This document shows positions 1-6,239 of a stretch of 6,239 nucleotides of DNA, one piece after another. Positions within the stretch are counted from its first letter, which is position 1. Each line of letters begins with the position of its first letter. Below the pieces are notes generated by a model. The model worked only from the letters and a program-made list of their open reading frames with translations, made no database searches and was not told the DNA's origin. Source of the stretch: a bacterium (lineage in GTDB: Bacteria; CSSED10-310; JAJRTK01); assembly GCA_024278345.1 (NCBI GenBank), contig JAJRTK010000169.1, forward strand, positions 1-6,239, given 5' to 3'. The position numbers were made by a program, and so were the translations under genes.

Positions 1-689
1 CGGTACCTCGACCCGGACCTCAATGGTCTCCAGATCGGCAAGGCGCGCCACCTTTCCGCCCCGGTCGATCCACTGGCCCACCTCGGTATAGACCTCTGTG
101 ACCACTCCTCCGAAGGGAGCCTTCACCACCCTCGCTTCAAATCATCCCTCAAATCAGCCAAAATCGCCTCGGCCCGCCTTTTCTGGCTCTCCAAGACCGC
201 CCGGTTGGCCACGTCCTGGTCCAGGCGCTCCTGGGCCACGATCTTCTTCCGAATGAGCTCCTGAGAACGAGCCTCTTCCGCCTCGGCTCGCAAAAGACGC
301 GCCTCCACTTCCCCAAGCTCTGCCTGGGCAGTCTCCAACGCCCGCTTGATCCGAAGCTGGTCCAAAGAAATCATCTTCTCACCCCGGCGAAACCACTTCC
401 CCTCGTCGATCTCCACGGAGTCCACTAAACCAGCCAGCTCACTGGCGACGATGCTCTCCCGAACGGGATAAACCGTTCCGGCAAACGAAAGCTCTTCGGT
501 GAGAGGCCGGCTCTCAACAGGAGCCGTCACCACTAGGGCAGCCCTGGGACCACCGCCCGCGGAAACCACCGCTGCCGCCACAAACAGAAACCCAAAACCG
601 GCCAACAGTCTCACGCCAGCCATACCCACAATCCCCTCACGACCCTTGGCAACTCCAACGAATCTTTGCCGGTCCACATCGATCCTCAC
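1..689 (-). pseudogene. RND/HlyD-family periplasmic adaptor (membrane fusion protein), frameshifted and cut by the window edge
   Basis: Adaptors of this family bridge an inner-membrane pump and an outer-membrane channel in Gram-negative efflux systems. From the first possible start, GTG at 687-689, the frame encodes a basic N-terminus and a hydrophobic signal or anchor segment (about residues 23-45). Next come the first lipoyl half-motif ('AGLVDSVEIDEGKWFRRGE', about 86-104) and a long charged coiled-coil hairpin (about 108-185), ending at a TGA at 123-125. The second lipoyl half-motif, 'KAPFGGVVTEVYTEVGQW', continues at once in another frame and stays open to base 1. One missing base near 133-138 explains this, giving DLKR-R-VVKAPF, close to the family pattern. 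Other starts are GTG at 675-677 (GAGG 6 bases upstream) and ATG at 621-623 (GAGGGG 9 bases upstream), which puts the signal segment at the N-terminus. The beta-barrel and C-terminal domains lie outside the window. The frameshift may be real or a sequencing error. Confidence 0.85.
126..141 (-). other. Frameshift point in the adaptor gene
   Basis: Reading on the minus strand, the upstream frame gives D-L-K-R-G-W-stop and the downstream frame gives A-R-V-V-K-A-P-F. Family conservation moves from the first frame to the second between about 141 and 130. The change equals loss of one base. I see no slippery heptamer of the X-XXY-YYZ kind here, so programmed frameshifting is not favoured. Confidence 0.75.
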
Positions 690-970
690 TCTCTCCAGTG
701 CCCTGGGAGACGGACACCTTTTTTACGTAAGACAACCGCCCACTCCCAATTCAGACGCCCAGGTCATCCAGATTTCTACGGAACCTGCCAAACTCGTCGA
801 ACCGAAAAAAAGCGAACAGCAGACAGTCGCCCGCAACCGCCTCCCACCCACAGGCCACGCTCCGAAGCGACAAACAAGAGACCTTGATCGCGAAACAACG
901 GATGAGATCCATGGGAACAGAAAGTCTGGCACCGGCAATCCAGAGCGGCTGCCCCTGTCATGCCCCGCTG

Positions 971-1003
971 AAAAGAAGAAAAGGGCAAGAAAACCTTGCG
1001 CCC
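971..1003 (-). terminator. Possible rho-independent terminator
   Basis: On the minus strand GCAAG-GTTTT-CTTGC forms a five-base stem. It is lengthened by GGG/CCC across one bulged base and is followed by TTTTCTTCTTTTC. It lies about 170 bases past the pyrE stop and before the adaptor gene. The bulge and the interrupted T-run make it a moderate candidate only. Confidence 0.45.
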
Positions 1004-1020
1004 CACGGGAAGCCAATGGT

Positions 1021-1056
1021 GCCCCCTTTTTCAGGGCAACCGATGGGAAAAGGGGC
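1021..1056. repeat. Imperfect inverted repeat
   Basis: The arms GCCCCCTTTTTC (1021-1032) and GAAAAGGGGC (1047-1056) pair over ten bases with one bulged C and one bulged T, leaving a 14-base loop. No T-tract follows on either strand, so it is not a standard terminator. It could be an RNA-stability or processing structure at the end of the pyr transcript. Confidence 0.4.
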
Positions 1057-1129
1057 GAAGATGGCGGACAGCGGGCGCCGGACGGCGACCGATGGGAGCG
1101 GAAGGCAACACATTGAGAAAAAAGAGGGT

Positions 1130-1157
1130 TCTGAAAACTAAGCCCGGGATTCCAGGC
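1130..1157 (-). terminator. Weak terminator-like hairpin after pyrE
   Basis: Starting 14 bases past the pyrE stop codon, the minus strand reads GCCTGG-AATC-CCGGGC, a six-pair stem with one G-T pair. It is followed by TTAGTTTTC and then a further T-rich stretch. The position fits the end of the pyr operon, but the stem is short. Confidence 0.4.
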
Positions 1158-1170
1158 ACCATGCGGGAAG

Positions 1171-1881
1171 TCAGGTTCCGGAACAATGGGCCAAATGCCG
1201 CTCCAACGCCTCCACCGCCGAACCGTTGTTCCCACCTTCCACACGCAGCGCGGCCAAAAGTTCTCGGGCCGTCAAAACGGAGTAAACCTCAATCCCCGTG
1301 AGTTCCCGAAACCGCTGGGCGCCCGTCCTGCCATCCTCCCCCGCTTCCTGGCGATCCAGCGCGATGACGAGCCCATCGATGGAAACCGTTGCCTCCACGC
1401 TCCTAAGCAGACGAATCGCCTCCAGTTTCGTTCGCGCCGTCGTCAGAACATCGTCCAGAATCACGATGCGCGCATTGGGCCGAATCTCGCACCCCACCAA
1501 CCTTGCACGGCTACGCTCGCTCTCCGAGGCCGATCCGGAATGCTCGCCGTGGCGCTTGGGCTCCTTTCGATCAAACAGCCATCCCATCTCCGCGCCGTGA
1601 AGCTCGTAAGCCAATAGAGCGGCGCCGACGGCTAGCGGAATGCCCTTGTAAGCGGGACCAAACAGGATATCCGGCCAGGTTGTGCCCCTAAAAGCCCTTT
1701 CCAGCACCGCCACATAGGCCCGGAAGAGCTCACCCACGGCCTTGCCCGTGGAAAACCGGCCCACGTCAAAGAAATAGGGAGACTCCAGGCCACTCTTGAG
1801 GCGAAATGGGCCGTCCAAGCGCAATGCGCCACAGTCCAGAGCTGCCCTGACAAATGCCCTCTTCTCCGAAGACAACTCCAC
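1171..1881 (-). CDS. pyrE: Orotate phosphoribosyltransferase
   Basis: Converts orotate and PRPP to OMP and pyrophosphate, the fifth step of de novo pyrimidine synthesis, in the cytoplasm. The protein has 236 residues, somewhat longer than the E. coli enzyme. Visible motifs: LKSG (28-31) with SPYFFDVGRF (34-43), FGPAYKGIPLA (74-84), the catalytic-loop motif RKEPKRHGE (105-113), the PRPP-binding motif VILDDVLTTART (140-151) and DRQE (176-179). The PRPP motif has Ala-Arg where many members have a Gly after the Thr; Ala is, as far as I recall, tolerated at the Gly position. About 12 extra residues, rich in Ser, Glu and Arg (114-126), follow the HGE loop compared with E. coli PyrE. The start is GTG at 1879-1881, preceded by AGGGAG eight bases upstream. 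The gene begins 38 bases after the pyrD stop, so co-transcription is likely. Identity is secure. Confidence 0.95.
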   Translation of the reverse strand: MELSSEKRAFVRAALDCGALRLDGPFRLKSGLESPYFFDVGRFSTGKAVGELFRAYVAVLERAFRGTTWPDILFGPAYKGIPLAVGAALLAYELHGAEMGWLFDRKEPKRHGEHSGSASESERSRARLVGCEIRPNARIVILDDVLTTARTKLEAIRLLRSVEATVSIDGLVIALDRQEAGEDGRTGAQRFRELTGIEVYSVLTARELLAALRVEGGNNGSAVEALERHLAHCSGT

Positions 1882-1919
1882 TGCCTTCTCCCTTCAAGAA
1901 GTCGCTCTTTCCGCACGGA

Positions 1920-2870
1920 TCAGGCCTCGACCGGCGCCACGCGCAAGGCACCGATCTTTGCCGCGATCCCTGGTACTCCCCGCTCCGCCAAAACCTCATG
2001 AAGCTCCCGCTTCAGCCTGCCAAAGATCTTCGGGCCTTCCTCCAAATAACTGGTTCCCACCTCTACCGCACCGGCGCCGCAAAGCAAATGGCCATAGAGA
2101 TCAAGCCCGGAATAGACACCGCCAACACCCACGACATCGACCTTCCCGGCCAAGGCCAGAAAAAACTGGCGGATGTTCCAGCGAGCGATCCGCAAGATAT
2201 CGCGGCCGCCGGCACCTCCCATCCCACCGTTGGGATGGATCCGCGTCTGCTCCGTCTCGAAGTCGATCTCCAAGCCGCTGGGAGAATTGATGCAAACGGC
2301 AGCCTGGACCCCCACGTCCAGAAGCAACTGAGCCATCGCCTCCACCATCGCCCGATCCTGGTAAGGCGGAAGCTTCACCCAAAGGTCGCACCTGGTGGAT
2401 CGGCGCACGGCCTTCAGGACCGACCGCGCCGCCTCCAAATCAAACGCCATCTGGGGCTTTCCCGGGATGTTGGGGCAAGAGAGGTTCACCTCAATGGCGC
2501 TGGCCACCCGGCCCAACCGTTCCGCCATGGCCGGATAGTCCTGGGCGCTCAGCCCCGCGATGCTCGCGATGACCGGCTTCCCAAACTCCGCCCGAAGCCG
2601 CTCCACCTGCCGGGCATGCCCTTCGCACCCCAAGTTGCAAAGCCCGTTGGAGTTCAATGAAGTGCCCCGCAGGGAGTCTCTCCAAAGCCGGGGCTCCGGA
2701 TTCCCCGCTCGCGGCTCCAGCGTCGCGGACTTCAAGACCACGGCACCTGCATCGGACTCAGCCAGTGCCCAGAGTTCTTCGTCCCGCGTCGAAAGCGGTC
2801 CCGATGCGTTGAAAACGCACGGCGCTATCTCCAACGTGCCAATCGTCGTCCTAAGATCCGATCCAGCCAT
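1920..2870 (-). CDS. pyrD: Dihydroorotate dehydrogenase, class 1A type
   Basis: Oxidises dihydroorotate to orotate using FMN. Class 1A enzymes are soluble, cytosolic and usually pass electrons to fumarate. From the ATG at 2868-2870 the protein has 316 residues, close to the family length. Matches to the Lactococcus PyrDA pattern: NASGP (21-25), KSATLEPRAGNPEPR (47-61, FMN-contact Lys47), NSNGL (73-77), NLSCPNIPGKPQ (129-140) with catalytic-base Cys132, KLPPY (166-170), CINS (193-196), GGV (250-252) and the phosphate-binding GAGAVEVGT (265-273). The SCPNxPGKPQ loop is typical of class 1A; class 1B has a different sequence there. No pyrK-like gene is adjacent, which agrees. A TTG at 2889-2891 would give a 4-base overlap with pyrBI and seven more residues but has no clear ribosome site; AGAAGGA lies 11 bases before the chosen ATG. 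Gaps are 17 bases to pyrBI and 38 to pyrE. Confidence 0.93.
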   Translation of the reverse strand: MAGSDLRTTIGTLEIAPCVFNASGPLSTRDEELWALAESDAGAVVLKSATLEPRAGNPEPRLWRDSLRGTSLNSNGLCNLGCEGHARQVERLRAEFGKPVIASIAGLSAQDYPAMAERLGRVASAIEVNLSCPNIPGKPQMAFDLEAARSVLKAVRRSTRCDLWVKLPPYQDRAMVEAMAQLLLDVGVQAAVCINSPSGLEIDFETEQTRIHPNGGMGGAGGRDILRIARWNIRQFFLALAGKVDVVGVGGVYSGLDLYGHLLCGAGAVEVGTSYLEEGPKIFGRLKRELHEVLAERGVPGIAAKIGALRVAPVEA

Positions 2871-2887
2871 GGCTCTGGGCTTCCTTC

Positions 2888-4420
2888 TCAAGCTCGCCCG
2901 ACAAAAGCGATCTCATTCTTCCGCATCCGGGCGTCGCAATAGTGGCACTGAAGCACTGGCGGGGTCCTAGACAAGGTACGGAAACGCGATTCCACGCCCT
3001 CCCTAAACTCCGGCCTCGAAATGCAATTCGGGTTCGGGCAGATCAGCAGTCCCCGCACCTGACGCGGCAACCGGACCAGCCCCTTCTCCACAATGGAGCC
3101 GCGCTCAATAAACGAAACCGTGGCATCGGGAGAGATCAACGCAATCTGGTTCAGCTCGGAACGGCTCGGCTTGTAGCCAATGATCTTGATCAGGTCTTTC
3201 CGGCTGCAGGCCGCGCGGCGACTGGCCAAGTTTTCCGCCACCAAGACCGGCACTCCACGGGGAATCCGAAGAGAAGCCTTCACAAGTCCCGAGTGTCCCG
3301 CCAAAATGTGATCGATGACGGTCCCGTCCTGAATGGTAAACAAATACTCCGGTCGAGGCTTATCCGGGTGCGACCGCCCTAGAGCCAACGGTGTCAGCGG
3401 AGATTCCTCCGCGGGCTCACCGGACTCCCTCCCCAGATACTCCGGCGTCTCGATCCCGCCGAGCACCAACGACAAGAGTGCAAGGCGAACCGTCAACCCG
3501 TTGGCCGCCTGCTGATAATAATAGGCATACGGCGAAGCGTCCACGGAGAAGTCCAGCTCCAAGTTCTCCTTGTCCCTGGGCAAGGGATGCAAGACCCGTA
3601 GATTTCTCTTGGCGCCCCGCAAATGGCGTGCCGAAAGCTGGAACGCCCGCCGCACCAACTCGAACTCCGTCTCGTCGGGAAAACGCTCCTTCTGGATACG
3701 CGTCATATATAGGATGTCCGTCTCCTCCACCACCTCTTCAATCTGAGTGTGAAGCGAATAGGGAACTCCAATCTCATCCAGATAGTCCCGGTACTCTACC
3801 GGCAACTGAAGACTCTGGGGCGCAACGAACCTCAAGCTGCAACCCCTGAACTTCGTCAACGCCTTCGTCAAGGAATGCACCGTCCGGCCATACTTCAGGT
3901 CCCCCACGAAAGAGATGACCATCTTCCCTAAATCCCGCAGCTCCTGCCACGATTCGTCGGGCCTCTGACATTCCAAGATAGAAAAGAGGTCCAACATGGT
4001 CTGCGTCGGATGCTCGTGGGCACCATCTCCAGCATTGACGATGGGAACATCGATAGACTCCGCCCCCCAAAGAGCTGCCCCCGACACCGGATGCCGCATC
4101 ACGATGACATCCGCGCCGTAACCCTGAATCATCCGAAGCGTATCCTTGAGAGGCTCTCCTTTTTGCCAAGACGTCCCTGTTCGGCTCGAAAAGCCCACAG
4201 TCTCCAGCCCAAGTTGCTTCGCAGCCTGCAGAAAGCTAAACCGCGTCCGCGTGCTAGGCTCAAAAAAAGCGTAGTACATCCGCCGACCCACAAGCCGCGC
4301 CTTCAGCTCCTCACGCCTTTCATGAACGCTCCGGGCCGTCTCCAGAACAAACAGAAGCTCCTCAAGGGAAAAATCCCCAATGGCCAAAATCGGCCTGCGA
4401 AAAAACGGTGGTCGAGTCAT
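2888..4420 (-). CDS. pyrBI: Aspartate transcarbamoylase, catalytic and regulatory chains fused (PyrB-PyrI)
   Basis: Makes carbamoyl-aspartate from carbamoyl phosphate and aspartate, the committed step of pyrimidine synthesis. From ATG 4418-4420 the chain has 510 residues. Residues 5-320 are a full catalytic chain: FFEPSTRTRFSF (52-63, carbamoyl-phosphate site), SWQKGEPLKDT (84-94, active-site Lys), MRHPVSGA (108-115), GDGAHEHPTQTMLDL (131-145), VGDLKYGRTVHSL (172-184), QKER (243-246, aspartate-binding Arg) and LHPLPR (277-282). A Pro/Glu-rich linker (about 322-357) leads to a PyrI domain. That domain has GTVIDHI (366-372, nucleotide-site Asp-His), RKDLIKI (407-413), a Lys at 446 matching the second nucleotide-contact Lys, and four zinc Cys (461, 466, 492, 495; C-x4-C and C-x2-C). 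All allosteric and zinc residues I checked against E. coli PyrI are present, so feedback by nucleotides is likely. Similar fusions are known from Thermotoga maritima. The frame stays open 60 codons upstream, but that stretch has no resemblance to PyrB. An ATG at 4427-4429 is a close alternative start. Confidence 0.93.
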   Translation of the reverse strand: MTRPPFFRRPILAIGDFSLEELLFVLETARSVHERREELKARLVGRRMYYAFFEPSTRTRFSFLQAAKQLGLETVGFSSRTGTSWQKGEPLKDTLRMIQGYGADVIVMRHPVSGAALWGAESIDVPIVNAGDGAHEHPTQTMLDLFSILECQRPDESWQELRDLGKMVISFVGDLKYGRTVHSLTKALTKFRGCSLRFVAPQSLQLPVEYRDYLDEIGVPYSLHTQIEEVVEETDILYMTRIQKERFPDETEFELVRRAFQLSARHLRGAKRNLRVLHPLPRDKENLELDFSVDASPYAYYYQQAANGLTVRLALLSLVLGGIETPEYLGRESGEPAEESPLTPLALGRSHPDKPRPEYLFTIQDGTVIDHILAGHSGLVKASLRIPRGVPVLVAENLASRRAACSRKDLIKIIGYKPSRSELNQIALISPDATVSFIERGSIVEKGLVRLPRQVRGLLICPNPNCISRPEFREGVESRFRTLSRTPPVLQCHYCDARMRKNEIAFVGRA

Positions 4421-4786
4421 ACCCTTCATCCTGCCAAAAAACCTGAGTTCCGCTGACACACAGATACCGGTCACCCATGACTGGCCCCACGAAAAAGAAC
4501 CCGCTCCAGAACCGGGATCAACCATCGAATTACGCAGTTTTCCCAGGCGACAGGATCTCCCTGCCTCGGAGCGTCCCCCAAAGAGCCCGAAGATGCTCAA
4601 GGGGTGGGTCGTATCACGCTCTCAAAGAGAAGTCCAAGCTATGCGGACGATCATTTCTTGGGTTGAGTTCCGCTCCCGGCGGCGGCAGTCCGTCCGCCGC
4701 CACTCGCCCATGAGCATTCCCTCAATTTTTCTCCACGACCCAAAGAGCAAGCCCACCGGACATCGACACGGATGGAGGTTTCCCCA
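4421..4786. other. Intergenic spacer between tpiA and pyrBI
   Basis: 366 bases with no convincing gene. I looked for secG, which often follows tpiA, and saw no hydrophobic frame. On the minus strand it holds a strong hairpin (4678-4701), a 29-codon basic ORF (4622-4711), an 11-base direct repeat TGAGTTCCGCT (plus strand, 4444-4454 and 4664-4674) and a weak promoter-like pair, TTGGAC (4637-4632) and GATACG (4615-4610) with 16 bases between. TCTCTTTGAGA, a small palindrome, lies inside that pair. The length suggests the pyr operon has its own promoter and perhaps a regulated leader. Confidence 0.5.
4678..4701. repeat. Perfect 8-bp GC hairpin between tpiA and pyrBI
   Basis: On the plus strand GGCGGCGG (4678-4685) and CCGCCGCC (4694-4701) are perfect complements around an eight-base loop. 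It starts about 85 bases past the tpiA stop codon. No T-run follows on the minus strand, so it is not a standard intrinsic terminator. It could block 3' decay of tpiA mRNA or form part of a pyr leader. Confidence 0.6.
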
Positions 4787-5545
4787 TCAACCGTCAACGC
4801 CCGCAGCCTTGATGATGGCCCAAAAACTCTCAAACTCCAGGCTGGCACCCCCAACAAGAAAACCGTCAATATCCGGCTGCTCCATAAGAAATGCTGCGTT
4901 CGCCGGCTTGACGCTTCCGCCGTATAGAATGGGAAAATCCTGGACATCTTGATCCGGGGCCGCCGCATGGAGTCGGCCTCGGAGAAACTCATGGACTTCC
5001 TGAGCCTGTTCCGGCGTAGCCGTCCGGCCCGTTCCAATGGCCCAAAGAGGCTCGTAGGCCACGATGACCCGGGTAAGATCATCCCCCAACGGCACAAGGC
5101 CAGCGTCAAGTTGACGCCCAAGATGCTCAAAAGTCTCTCCCCGCTCCCGGTTCTCCAAGCTCTCGCCAATGCAAACAATTGGAATCAGTCCATGCTCGAG
5201 CGCCGCCCGAGCCTTCGCCAAGACGCGAGCATCCCCTTCCCCGTGAAACTTCCGCCGCTCCGAGTGCCCCACGATGACATGGGAACACCCCGCGACTGAC
5301 AACATTCGCGCTGAAATATCCCCGGTAAACGCGCCGAAATCCGCCTCATGACAGTCCTGCCCTCCAAAATAGAGCCCCCCGTCACCTGCCTCTGACATCA
5401 GCTCGCGAAGCCAGATGAGAGGTGGAAACAACACGATATCCACACCACACGGCGCATCGGCGACCGACAATGAGCGAACCAGCTCTTTCGCCGAATCCGC
5501 CACCATATTCATCTTCCAGTTTCCCGCTACCATCCGCCTAGCCAT
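4787..5545 (-). CDS. tpiA: Triosephosphate isomerase
   Basis: Interconverts dihydroxyacetone phosphate and glyceraldehyde 3-phosphate in glycolysis and gluconeogenesis; cytoplasmic, normally a dimer. With the second of two adjacent ATGs (5543-5545) the protein has 252 residues, the usual length. Catalytic and structural motifs are all present: AGNWKMN (7-13, with Asn9 and Lys11), IVGHSERR (91-98, electrophile His94), AYEPLWAIGTG (163-173, base Glu165 followed by the flexible-loop region), YGGSVK (208-213) and VGGASL (231-236, phosphate-binding glycines). The segment GGQDCHEADFGAFTGDIS (61-78) differs from the common AQN...GAFTGE form and resembles the version I associate with Alphaproteobacteria. 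GGAGG at 5553-5557 is seven bases from this ATG and four from the first (5546-5548), so the second is preferred; the difference is one residue. It is upstream of pyrBI on the same strand but 366 bases away. Confidence 0.97.
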   Translation of the reverse strand: MARRMVAGNWKMNMVADSAKELVRSLSVADAPCGVDIVLFPPLIWLRELMSEAGDGGLYFGGQDCHEADFGAFTGDISARMLSVAGCSHVIVGHSERRKFHGEGDARVLAKARAALEHGLIPIVCIGESLENRERGETFEHLGRQLDAGLVPLGDDLTRVIVAYEPLWAIGTGRTATPEQAQEVHEFLRGRLHAAAPDQDVQDFPILYGGSVKPANAAFLMEQPDIDGFLVGGASLEFESFWAIIKAAGVDG

Positions 5546-5552
5546 CATGAAA

Positions 5553-5557
5553 CCTCC
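5553..5557 (-). promoter_or_regulatory. Ribosome binding site of tpiA
   Basis: GGAGG on the minus strand, the clearest Shine-Dalgarno sequence in the window. Its spacing, seven bases to the second ATG and four to the first, favours the second as the main start. Confidence 0.7.
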
Positions 5558-5882
5558 ATTTGGAAAACAGCCAATAATCGGTTCTCCGCTACGCTCCGGC
5601 TACACCCTTCGGCCCCTCACCGCACTCGACGCGCCACCATCAGCGGCAGGTTCCCATCAATAACAGGGAAGACTCGGAACAATCCGTGATAAGATCGCCC
5701 GATTTCGGCATCCCGTCAGCAAGCAGGATGAATTGGACACAAGCGGAAACGGAATCGTGTTACGCACAAAAAGGCGAGTGGCAGCGGACGCGGGGAACTC
5801 GTGCCGCAGGCGCGGGTCGGCACCGCCGAGAGCGGATACAACCAAACGCCGGTGCAATCCCTGGCCAGCACCCCAAAAGATT

Positions 5883-5962
5883 GAAGACAAAAGTCTGCTT
5901 GCGGCAAAAACCACGGTGAAGCTGGAAGACAAAAGTCTCTCTCCGGAGGCTTTTACGGTAAA
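5883..5962. repeat. Degenerate 42-bp tandem repeat with AGAC-AAAA-GTCT palindromes
   Basis: GAAGACAAAAGTCT occurs at 5883-5896 and exactly again at 5925-5938, a period of 42 bases. Further blocks line up in each unit: CGG, then ACGGT[GA]AAG. Each core contains AGAC-AAAA-GTCT, a short inverted repeat. The second unit also holds TTTAC-G-GTAAA (5952-5962), a perfect odd palindrome. Forty-two bases is about four helical turns, so paired protein-binding sites on one DNA face are possible. In one plus-strand frame the units encode a 14-residue repeat, KIEDKSLLAAKTTV / KLEDKSLSPEAFTV, so a coding remnant is the alternative. Confidence 0.6.
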
Positions 5963-5997
5963 GAGAAAAAACCGTTTCCGCAGGATTGTTCCCCCCC

Positions 5998-6239
5998 GGG
6001 TATCCACGCAAGGCGGGACATTCCCAGGACTGTGGAATCGCAAGCGTCCGGGCAACGCCTCGCTATCGCTCGGCGGGTCACGCCGCGCGTTACCCGAAGG
6101 TGGTCCGGGGATTCCATCCCCCGTCCCCTGGCAGGGCTTCGCCCTGCACCCACCAGGGAGCGCGCTCCCTGGACCCACGTTTTTGTACGCTACGCGTTTT
6201 CCTTTTTTTTCTGTTCTGTCCCGCCTTGCGTGGATACCC
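5998..6239. repeat. 242-bp element bounded by a perfect 23-bp inverted repeat (MITE-like, or end of a larger element)
   Basis: Bases 5998-6020 (beginning GGGTATCCACGCAAGG) are the exact reverse complement of 6217-6239, the last 23 bases of the window. Between them are nested inverted repeats: TGGAATC/GATTCCA (6033-6039 with 6110-6116), CGGGCAACGC with GCGTTACCCG (6049-6058 with 6087-6096, nine of ten pairs), CGGCG/CGCCG (6071-6075 with 6081-6085), and two strong hairpins at 6131-6172. There is no transposase-like frame. This is the form of a non-autonomous mobile element or a palindromic intergenic repeat. Target-site duplications cannot be judged because the right flank is absent. The arms may extend past the window. 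Confidence 0.6.
6131..6172. repeat. Palindrome doublet inside the right-edge element
   Basis: GCAGGGC-TTC-GCCCTGC (6131-6147) is a seven-pair hairpin. Five bases later comes a perfect 20-base palindrome with half-site CCAGGGAGCG (6153-6172). CCCTGG at 6126-6131 can also pair with CCAGGG at 6153-6158, so the two hairpins can refold into one larger structure. Similar adjoining 'gcagggc..gccctgc' and 'ccaggg..ccctgg' hairpins are, from memory, widespread as dispersed repeats in several GC-rich bacteria. Confidence 0.7.

Follow-up and report, generated by a model that had tools for sequence, protein, structure and literature searches.

A 242-bp inverted repeat at a contig end is very probably a MITE that is moved by a DUF6399-family transposase

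Introduction

The last 242 bases of a 6239-nt bacterial contig are bounded by two matching arms in inverted orientation, and the contig stops at the outer end of the second arm. This raises the question of what kind of element the repeat is, which protein moves it if it is mobile, and why the sequence breaks off there. The window that we analysed is the whole contig (C91, positions 1–6239), which belongs to a genome assembly of 6.06 Mb in 550 contigs that is 87.9% complete. Based on the letters of the window, an initial annotation had proposed a non-autonomous transposable element or an undescribed palindromic repeat family.

A structured, non-coding repeat at the contig end

The left terminal inverted repeat, GGGTATCCACGCAAGGCGGGACA (5998–6020, + strand), and the right one (6217–6239, − strand) are exact reverse complements of each other, with 0 mismatches (100% complementary) and a spacer of 196 nt. 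The claim that this perfect 23-bp repeat is beyond chance holds, as the expectation for a perfect 23-nt inverted repeat within 242 nt is well below 1e-8, inferred from 4^-23. The copy is complete from arm to arm (5998–6239), and the last base of its right arm (6239) is the last base of the contig.

The interior (6021–6216) had been described as densely structured and non-coding, and we observed both properties. The gene search found no convincing gene in the interior of this copy, and the Rfam search found no family above the gathering score. The 242 nt have a folding energy of −74.1 kcal/mol, far below the −42.2 kcal/mol (sd 3.5) of shuffled sequences (z = −9.0). This difference stems partly from the arms and partly from two perfect hairpin modules, GCAGGGCTTCGCCCTGC (6131–6147, + strand, −12.2 kcal/mol) and CCAGGGAGCGCGCTCCCTGG (6153–6172, + strand). 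A T-run (6180–6184) lies 3' of the latter, and a terminator scan found no terminator. The interior is composed of modular hairpins, with type A sequence inside the left arm (TTCCCAGGAC...) and type B sequence inside the right arm (GAACAGAAAA...).

Elsewhere in the window, the catalytic (OTCace) and regulatory (PyrI) chains of aspartate carbamoyltransferase are fused in a single frame on the minus strand (2888–4600). The neighbours of this fusion are genes for a dihydroorotate dehydrogenase (1920–2891), a phosphoribosyltransferase (1171–1881) and a triosephosphate isomerase (4787–5548).

Copies in the genome and breaks in the assembly

When the arm was searched in its own genome at up to 3 mismatches, 413 matches were found (196 + 217), compared to 0 for the reversed control, and these arms would correspond to roughly two hundred elements. 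The search with the whole 242-bp query yielded at least 93 matches to full or partial copies, of which the longer ones are 83–100% identical; as 40 of 568 candidates were scored, this count is a lower bound. The repeat is neither a single copy nor built of arms that belong to longer ordinary sequence, two findings that would have spoken against a mobile element. Outside this genome, the exact 23-mer arm is absent from GTDB genomes and viral contigs, and searches of plasmids and of 59 further genomes, 7 of them from the phylum of the window, found no DNA of the repeat.

In a systematic contig sample of 603 kb, sites that match the arm with no more than 5 mismatches have a density of 88 per Mb, with one site in the control. 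Of 102 sampled contig ends, 13 lie inside an element, whereas 1.2% is expected for a random end, an enrichment of about tenfold. The assembler thus breaks at the repeat, and the proposal that the window ends at a multi-copy repeat is borne out. As the tip of the element coincides with the contig end, one might also suspect an assembly artefact, that is, a foldback or a chimera; however, many copies are internal to contigs, where they have flanks that differ and duplications, which refutes an artefact and leaves it with practically no credibility.

Target duplications and gene interruption

In all sequence that we read there are 42 arm pairs, and 36 of them are short pairs with both flanks readable. 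Exact direct duplications flank 17 of these 36 pairs, with a length of 8 bp in 11 cases and 9 bp in 6 cases and with 0 cases of any other length, whereas shuffling the flanks among elements gives about 0.5 expected duplications. Examples include GCGAGATC, GAACCACA, GACGATGAG, CGGCCCGGA, TCGAGTTC and CCGGGATTC, and further copies are one base short of a duplication. The short flanking duplications that the initial annotation had proposed to look for thus exist. In the window copy, the duplication is unreadable as its right partner lies beyond the contig end; the 8 bases at the position of the left duplication (5990–5997) are a run of C.

One copy (L007, contig C512), which is flanked by the duplication TGGAATGC, interrupts an AAA_16/TPR gene. 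To its left are 500 codons with the AAA_16 domain and to its right 384 codons with TPR repeats, and the frame is free of stops over 882 aa when the empty site is rejoined in silico. This copy is a transposon insertion. Taken together, the copies, the terminal inverted repeats, the duplications of 8 or 9 bp and the split gene identify the element as a MITE.

Strong hairpins, many copies and a non-coding interior could also characterise a palindromic repeat that is maintained by the host without any transposon, such as a REP/BIME-like repeat, a terminator or an RNA element. Such a repeat would not account for precise duplications of 8–9 bp, insertion into a reading frame and 23-bp terminal repeats, and neither an Rfam match nor a terminator in the scan was found. 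The duplications refute a host-maintained repeat as the origin, which we consider extremely unlikely, while a later co-option of MITE copies as terminators is possible. The suggestion of an undescribed palindromic repeat family is therefore correct for the interior, which consists of small palindromes, whereas the flanking duplications mark a transposon.

Anatomy of the family

Across the family, the MITEs range from 168 to 303 bp. Four types of sequence occur next to the left arm on its inner side, namely A (TTCCCGGGACTGTGGAAT), F, G and H, and four others next to the right arm, namely B (GAACAGAAAAAAAAGG), C, D and E. A left type is always combined with a right type, and many combinations occur; judging from this pairing, it seems that ends were exchanged between copies without a change of polarity. 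The middle of the elements is a series of small palindromes, in which the module GGGTCACGTTTGCGTGACTCGAAG can be amplified in tandem. This 24-bp palindromic module, which also occurs singly inside MITEs, forms a tandem array at one locus (L077, 1–165, contig C164).

Passengers and possible parasites of the MITE

We also observed other elements at these loci. A multi-copy group II intron is present in L075, L102, L112, L125, L141, L143 and L052 (21–99, + strand), the last with a match to RF00029. The two 5' junctions observed immediately follow the hairpin CCAGGGAGC..GCTCCCTGGAC, and the 3' junctions are mostly CCACATTTTTG or a close variant, which is a terminator-like module of the MITE. In other copies the intron lies directly behind the CCAGGGAGCGCGCTCCCTGG hairpin, which corresponds to the junction of 6174 and 6175 in the window, 5' of the T-run. 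For group IIC introns, insertion at a terminator-like hairpin module has been described (PMC7923331).

An element of about 105 nt (CCATGAAAGTACATGG...GGATCATGCTCGT), which has hairpins close to either end, was found in L074, L014, L029, L166/L178 and L165, where there are two in tandem. It has a constant position and orientation within the 23-bp arm, with GGGTATCCACNTA before it and TAAGGCGGGACA behind it, and by analogy it resembles an IS200/IS605-derived parasite of MITE ends. A second dispersed repeat family, with the ends GGGACCTATCAAATC and GATCTGATAGGTCCC, occurs in L073, L079, L067 and the interior of L071, where it is nested in the MITE.

A further passenger is relevant to the question of the parent. 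In contig C5 (L065, 1–1240), an ISL3 transposase gene lies within a MITE and is itself split by another hairpin-rich element. An ISL3-family transposase might thus be taken to move the MITE: fragments of PF01610 (ISL3) are found at positions 9–767 of C5, the gene runs into MITE sequence that ends in an arm (1216–1238), and ISL3 makes 8-bp duplications. Past its stop codon, however, the relic ends in GCGAAGAGCC, which read inward is GGCTCTTCGC and which we take to be a typical ISL3 tip, and the MITE resumes at AAAAATGTGGGTCC (AAAAATGTGGG). This shows that an ISL3 copy jumped into the MITE and is a passenger, not the parent. Furthermore, the genome has no ISL3 zinc ribbon, and no arm lies close to the second PF01610 relic (C395). 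ISL3 as the parent is thus nearly refuted, as the ends of the relic differ, and we regard it as very unlikely.

The probable parent element

To find a parent, we scanned the relaxed arm pattern GGGNATCCACNNAANNCGGGACA over GTDB genomes. It matched at least four other, unrelated genomes, namely the proteobacterium MAG A14_bin-2326 (239 arms), Competibacteraceae PLM2.Bin17 (7), Chloroflexi G576 (21) and Crenothrix polyspora (81), compared to 0 in the controls, and had no match in viral contigs. Among the matches listed, DUF6399 (PF19936) is present above the Pfam cut-off in all four of these genomes, whereas it is found in 3 of 386 genomes of the set of relatives (the genome of the window and one other of its phylum are among the three); this contrast is strong but is not a formal test, as the background is taxonomically different and the Competibacteraceae genome was known beforehand from its locus. 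Viral contigs and phages contain no DUF6399. In Crenothrix polyspora, seven arm matches lie in one orientation at distances of about 193 bp (L156, 1474–2775), and in this array a unit that is bounded by arms and related to these MITEs has been amplified in tandem.

Full-length relatives with the same kind of ends and a transposase-like gene, whose existence the initial annotation had proposed to check, were found in other genomes. A complete element of 1725 bp in A14_bin-2326 (C338, 2–1726) has terminal inverted repeats and one open DUF6399 frame of 536 aa. In Competibacteraceae (L150, 931–2654), two arms enclose 1724 bp of the same architecture, with two overlapping, frameshifted frames of which the second is DUF6399 at 1.5e-57. 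A complete element of 2505 bp on a Crinalium plasmid (L169, 1577–4081) has perfect 23-bp arms and the 8-bp duplication CGTTTTCT, and on plasmids of Crinalium, Acaryochloris and Methylomonas an arm of this kind lies at or close to the end of the DUF6399 gene. Target duplications were absent from the Competibacteraceae element and from several of the A14 elements. The arms beside the gene read GG(G/C)TAYCCAC..AAGSCGGGACA, with the exception of Thiodictyon, where the element has different ends (GGCCTTGATCAT...) and, as read from the sequence, the 8-bp duplication GTCCAACC; the ends thus vary within the DUF6399 family. We also found deletion derivatives that retain both ends. One of them, in A14_bin-2326 (L216, 352 bp), has kept the last ~105 codons of DUF6399, and the other, in Methylomonas (L170), has lost the core such that the HTH is fused to DUF6399.

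The genome of the window itself contains damaged fragments, with no complete DUF6399 element in its assembly (87.9% complete, 550 contigs). A search with the Competibacteraceae protein located DUF6399 fragments at C188, C390, C507 and C80. At C188, C390 and C507 the C-terminal coding sequence runs up to an arm (540–562 in C188), and in C36 the inner side of an arm is followed closely by an N-terminal piece. The arms of these relics are identical to the window arm at 19–20 of 23 positions. The MITE and the DUF6399 element have the 23-bp ends in common but not the interior.

Two other candidates for the parent were rejected. A DDE_Tnp_1 fragment (C373), which by eye reads as an ISAs1-like C-terminus, has no arm beside it. 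A pair of arms 3853 bp apart in C452 encloses ordinary genes with no evident transposase, and we took these arms as the ends of separate elements.

As there is no complete DUF6399 element in the genome, and as multi-copy elements, IS included, tend to drop out of metagenome bins, the MITE might instead be moved by another, unassembled transposase family that has the same ends by chance. Against this, DUF6399 genes adjoin these ends in the genome itself and, among the matches listed, occur in every genome that was found by the ends alone. Furthermore, IS256 has no match in the genome, and its sole DDE_Tnp_1 fragment adjoins no arm. We thus consider a different family unlikely.

The DUF6399 protein

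Five full-length DUF6399 proteins, which are 28–42% identical to the first, share the invariant residues D143 (in DETF), D197 (in VSD) and E450 (in SSAVEGRNG, that is, S-S-x-x-E-G-R-N-G). These proteins also have an N-terminal HTH, either HTH_IclR (IclR-like) or HTH_28, and one of them has a match to the integrase core rve over 151–233, which is weak (E = 4e-4) and below the curated Pfam cut-off. Their layout would fit a DDE transposase in which a long insert precedes the E, and we infer the corresponding fold. A single-sequence AlphaFold model reached a pLDDT of 41 and was discarded. The proteins match no transposase family in Pfam or NCBIfam and no NCBIfam model at all, and PDB sequence and profile searches yielded no transposase. 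In Pfam, DUF6399 is a family of unknown function, and plasmid records name the protein 'DUF6399 domain-containing protein'. Our literature search found no paper that mentions DUF6399, and none of the papers retrieved with the arm motif concerns bacterial repeats. As the ends of the larger element match those of the MITE, DUF6399 has the appearance of a transposase that has gone unrecognised; it is probably of the DDE type and part of an IS family that has no name in the Pfam and NCBIfam libraries.

Proposed mechanism and implications

We conclude that the 242-bp repeat is, with high probability, a MITE, a gene-less cut-and-paste transposon that is moved in trans by a transposase of the DUF6399 family. 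Its 242 bp fall within the range of about 50–600 bp of bacterial MITEs, and it is non-coding, bounded by terminal inverted repeats and present in multiple copies with duplications of fixed length. Its probable parent agrees with it in the ends and in the length of the duplication. The first reading of the initial annotation, a non-autonomous transposable element, is thus supported by the copies, the 8–9 bp duplications, the enrichment at contig ends and the relative with the same ends. In the proposed mechanism, the N-terminal helix-turn-helix of DUF6399 would bind the 23-bp ends, and the putative DDE active site (the D of DETF, the D of VSD and the E of SSAVEGRNG) would cut the element out. 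The element would then be joined to its target with a stagger of 8 or 9 bp, which would create the 8–9 bp duplication, and the transposase would act in trans on this MITE. It may still be active in the genome of the window, whose assembly contains damaged DUF6399 genes only.

On a broader scale, we favour, with moderate confidence, that an IS family which crosses phyla (Cyanobacteria, Gammaproteobacteria, Chloroflexi and the under-sampled phylum of the window) and has gone unrecognised has DUF6399 proteins as its transposases. This family would have ends of ~23 bp (GGsTAyCCAC..AAGsCGGGACA) and duplications of 8–9 bp, and would give rise to MITE populations of very large size, with 239 arms in one MAG and 413 in the genome of the window. 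A group II intron that seeks hairpins and a small element that inserts at one position of the arm would in turn prey on these MITEs. While the MITE itself is a known kind of element, the DUF6399 parent is new to Pfam, NCBIfam, the plasmid records and the literature that we searched. A Pfam family of unknown function thereby gains a testable function as a transposase, and the pair of MITE and IS with defined ends is ready for a transposition assay. The repeat also accounts for breaks in the present assembly and probably in other metagenome assemblies, and arms of the same kind in distant genomes suggest that many unannotated repeats are part of the DUF6399 system.

Comparison with known systems

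DDE elements of the IS256, ISL3 and hAT types make duplications of 8–9 bp and have a long stretch that separates the second D from the E, and the ends of ISL3 start with GG. DUF6399 is similar in its duplications, in ends that start with GG and in this stretch of about 250 residues, but has no Pfam match to those families. The cyanobacterial and gammaproteobacterial plasmid copies of DUF6399 (Crinalium, Acaryochloris and Methylomonas) have ends of this kind next to the gene, and their proteins combine an HTH with DDE-like residues. The Crinalium element shares the 8-bp duplication, whereas the ends of the Thiodictyon element are unlike the others.

For the MITE, a comparable system is MITEAba12, a bacterial MITE with a resident parent IS, ISAba12, in which 40% of the copies have intact duplications (PMC6382973). 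Both families are short and non-coding, share their terminal inverted repeats with a resident IS, insert into genes and have kept the duplications intact in a large proportion of their copies (17 of 36 pairs here). They differ in the length of the duplication (9 bp in MITEAba12, 8–9 bp here), in the length of the arms (16 and 23 bp) and in the parent, which is the ISAba12 transposase for MITEAba12 and DUF6399 here. Furthermore, MITEAba12 is AT-rich, whereas the family of the window is G+C-rich with hairpin modules and has a far higher copy number, with 413 arms in 6.06 Mb.
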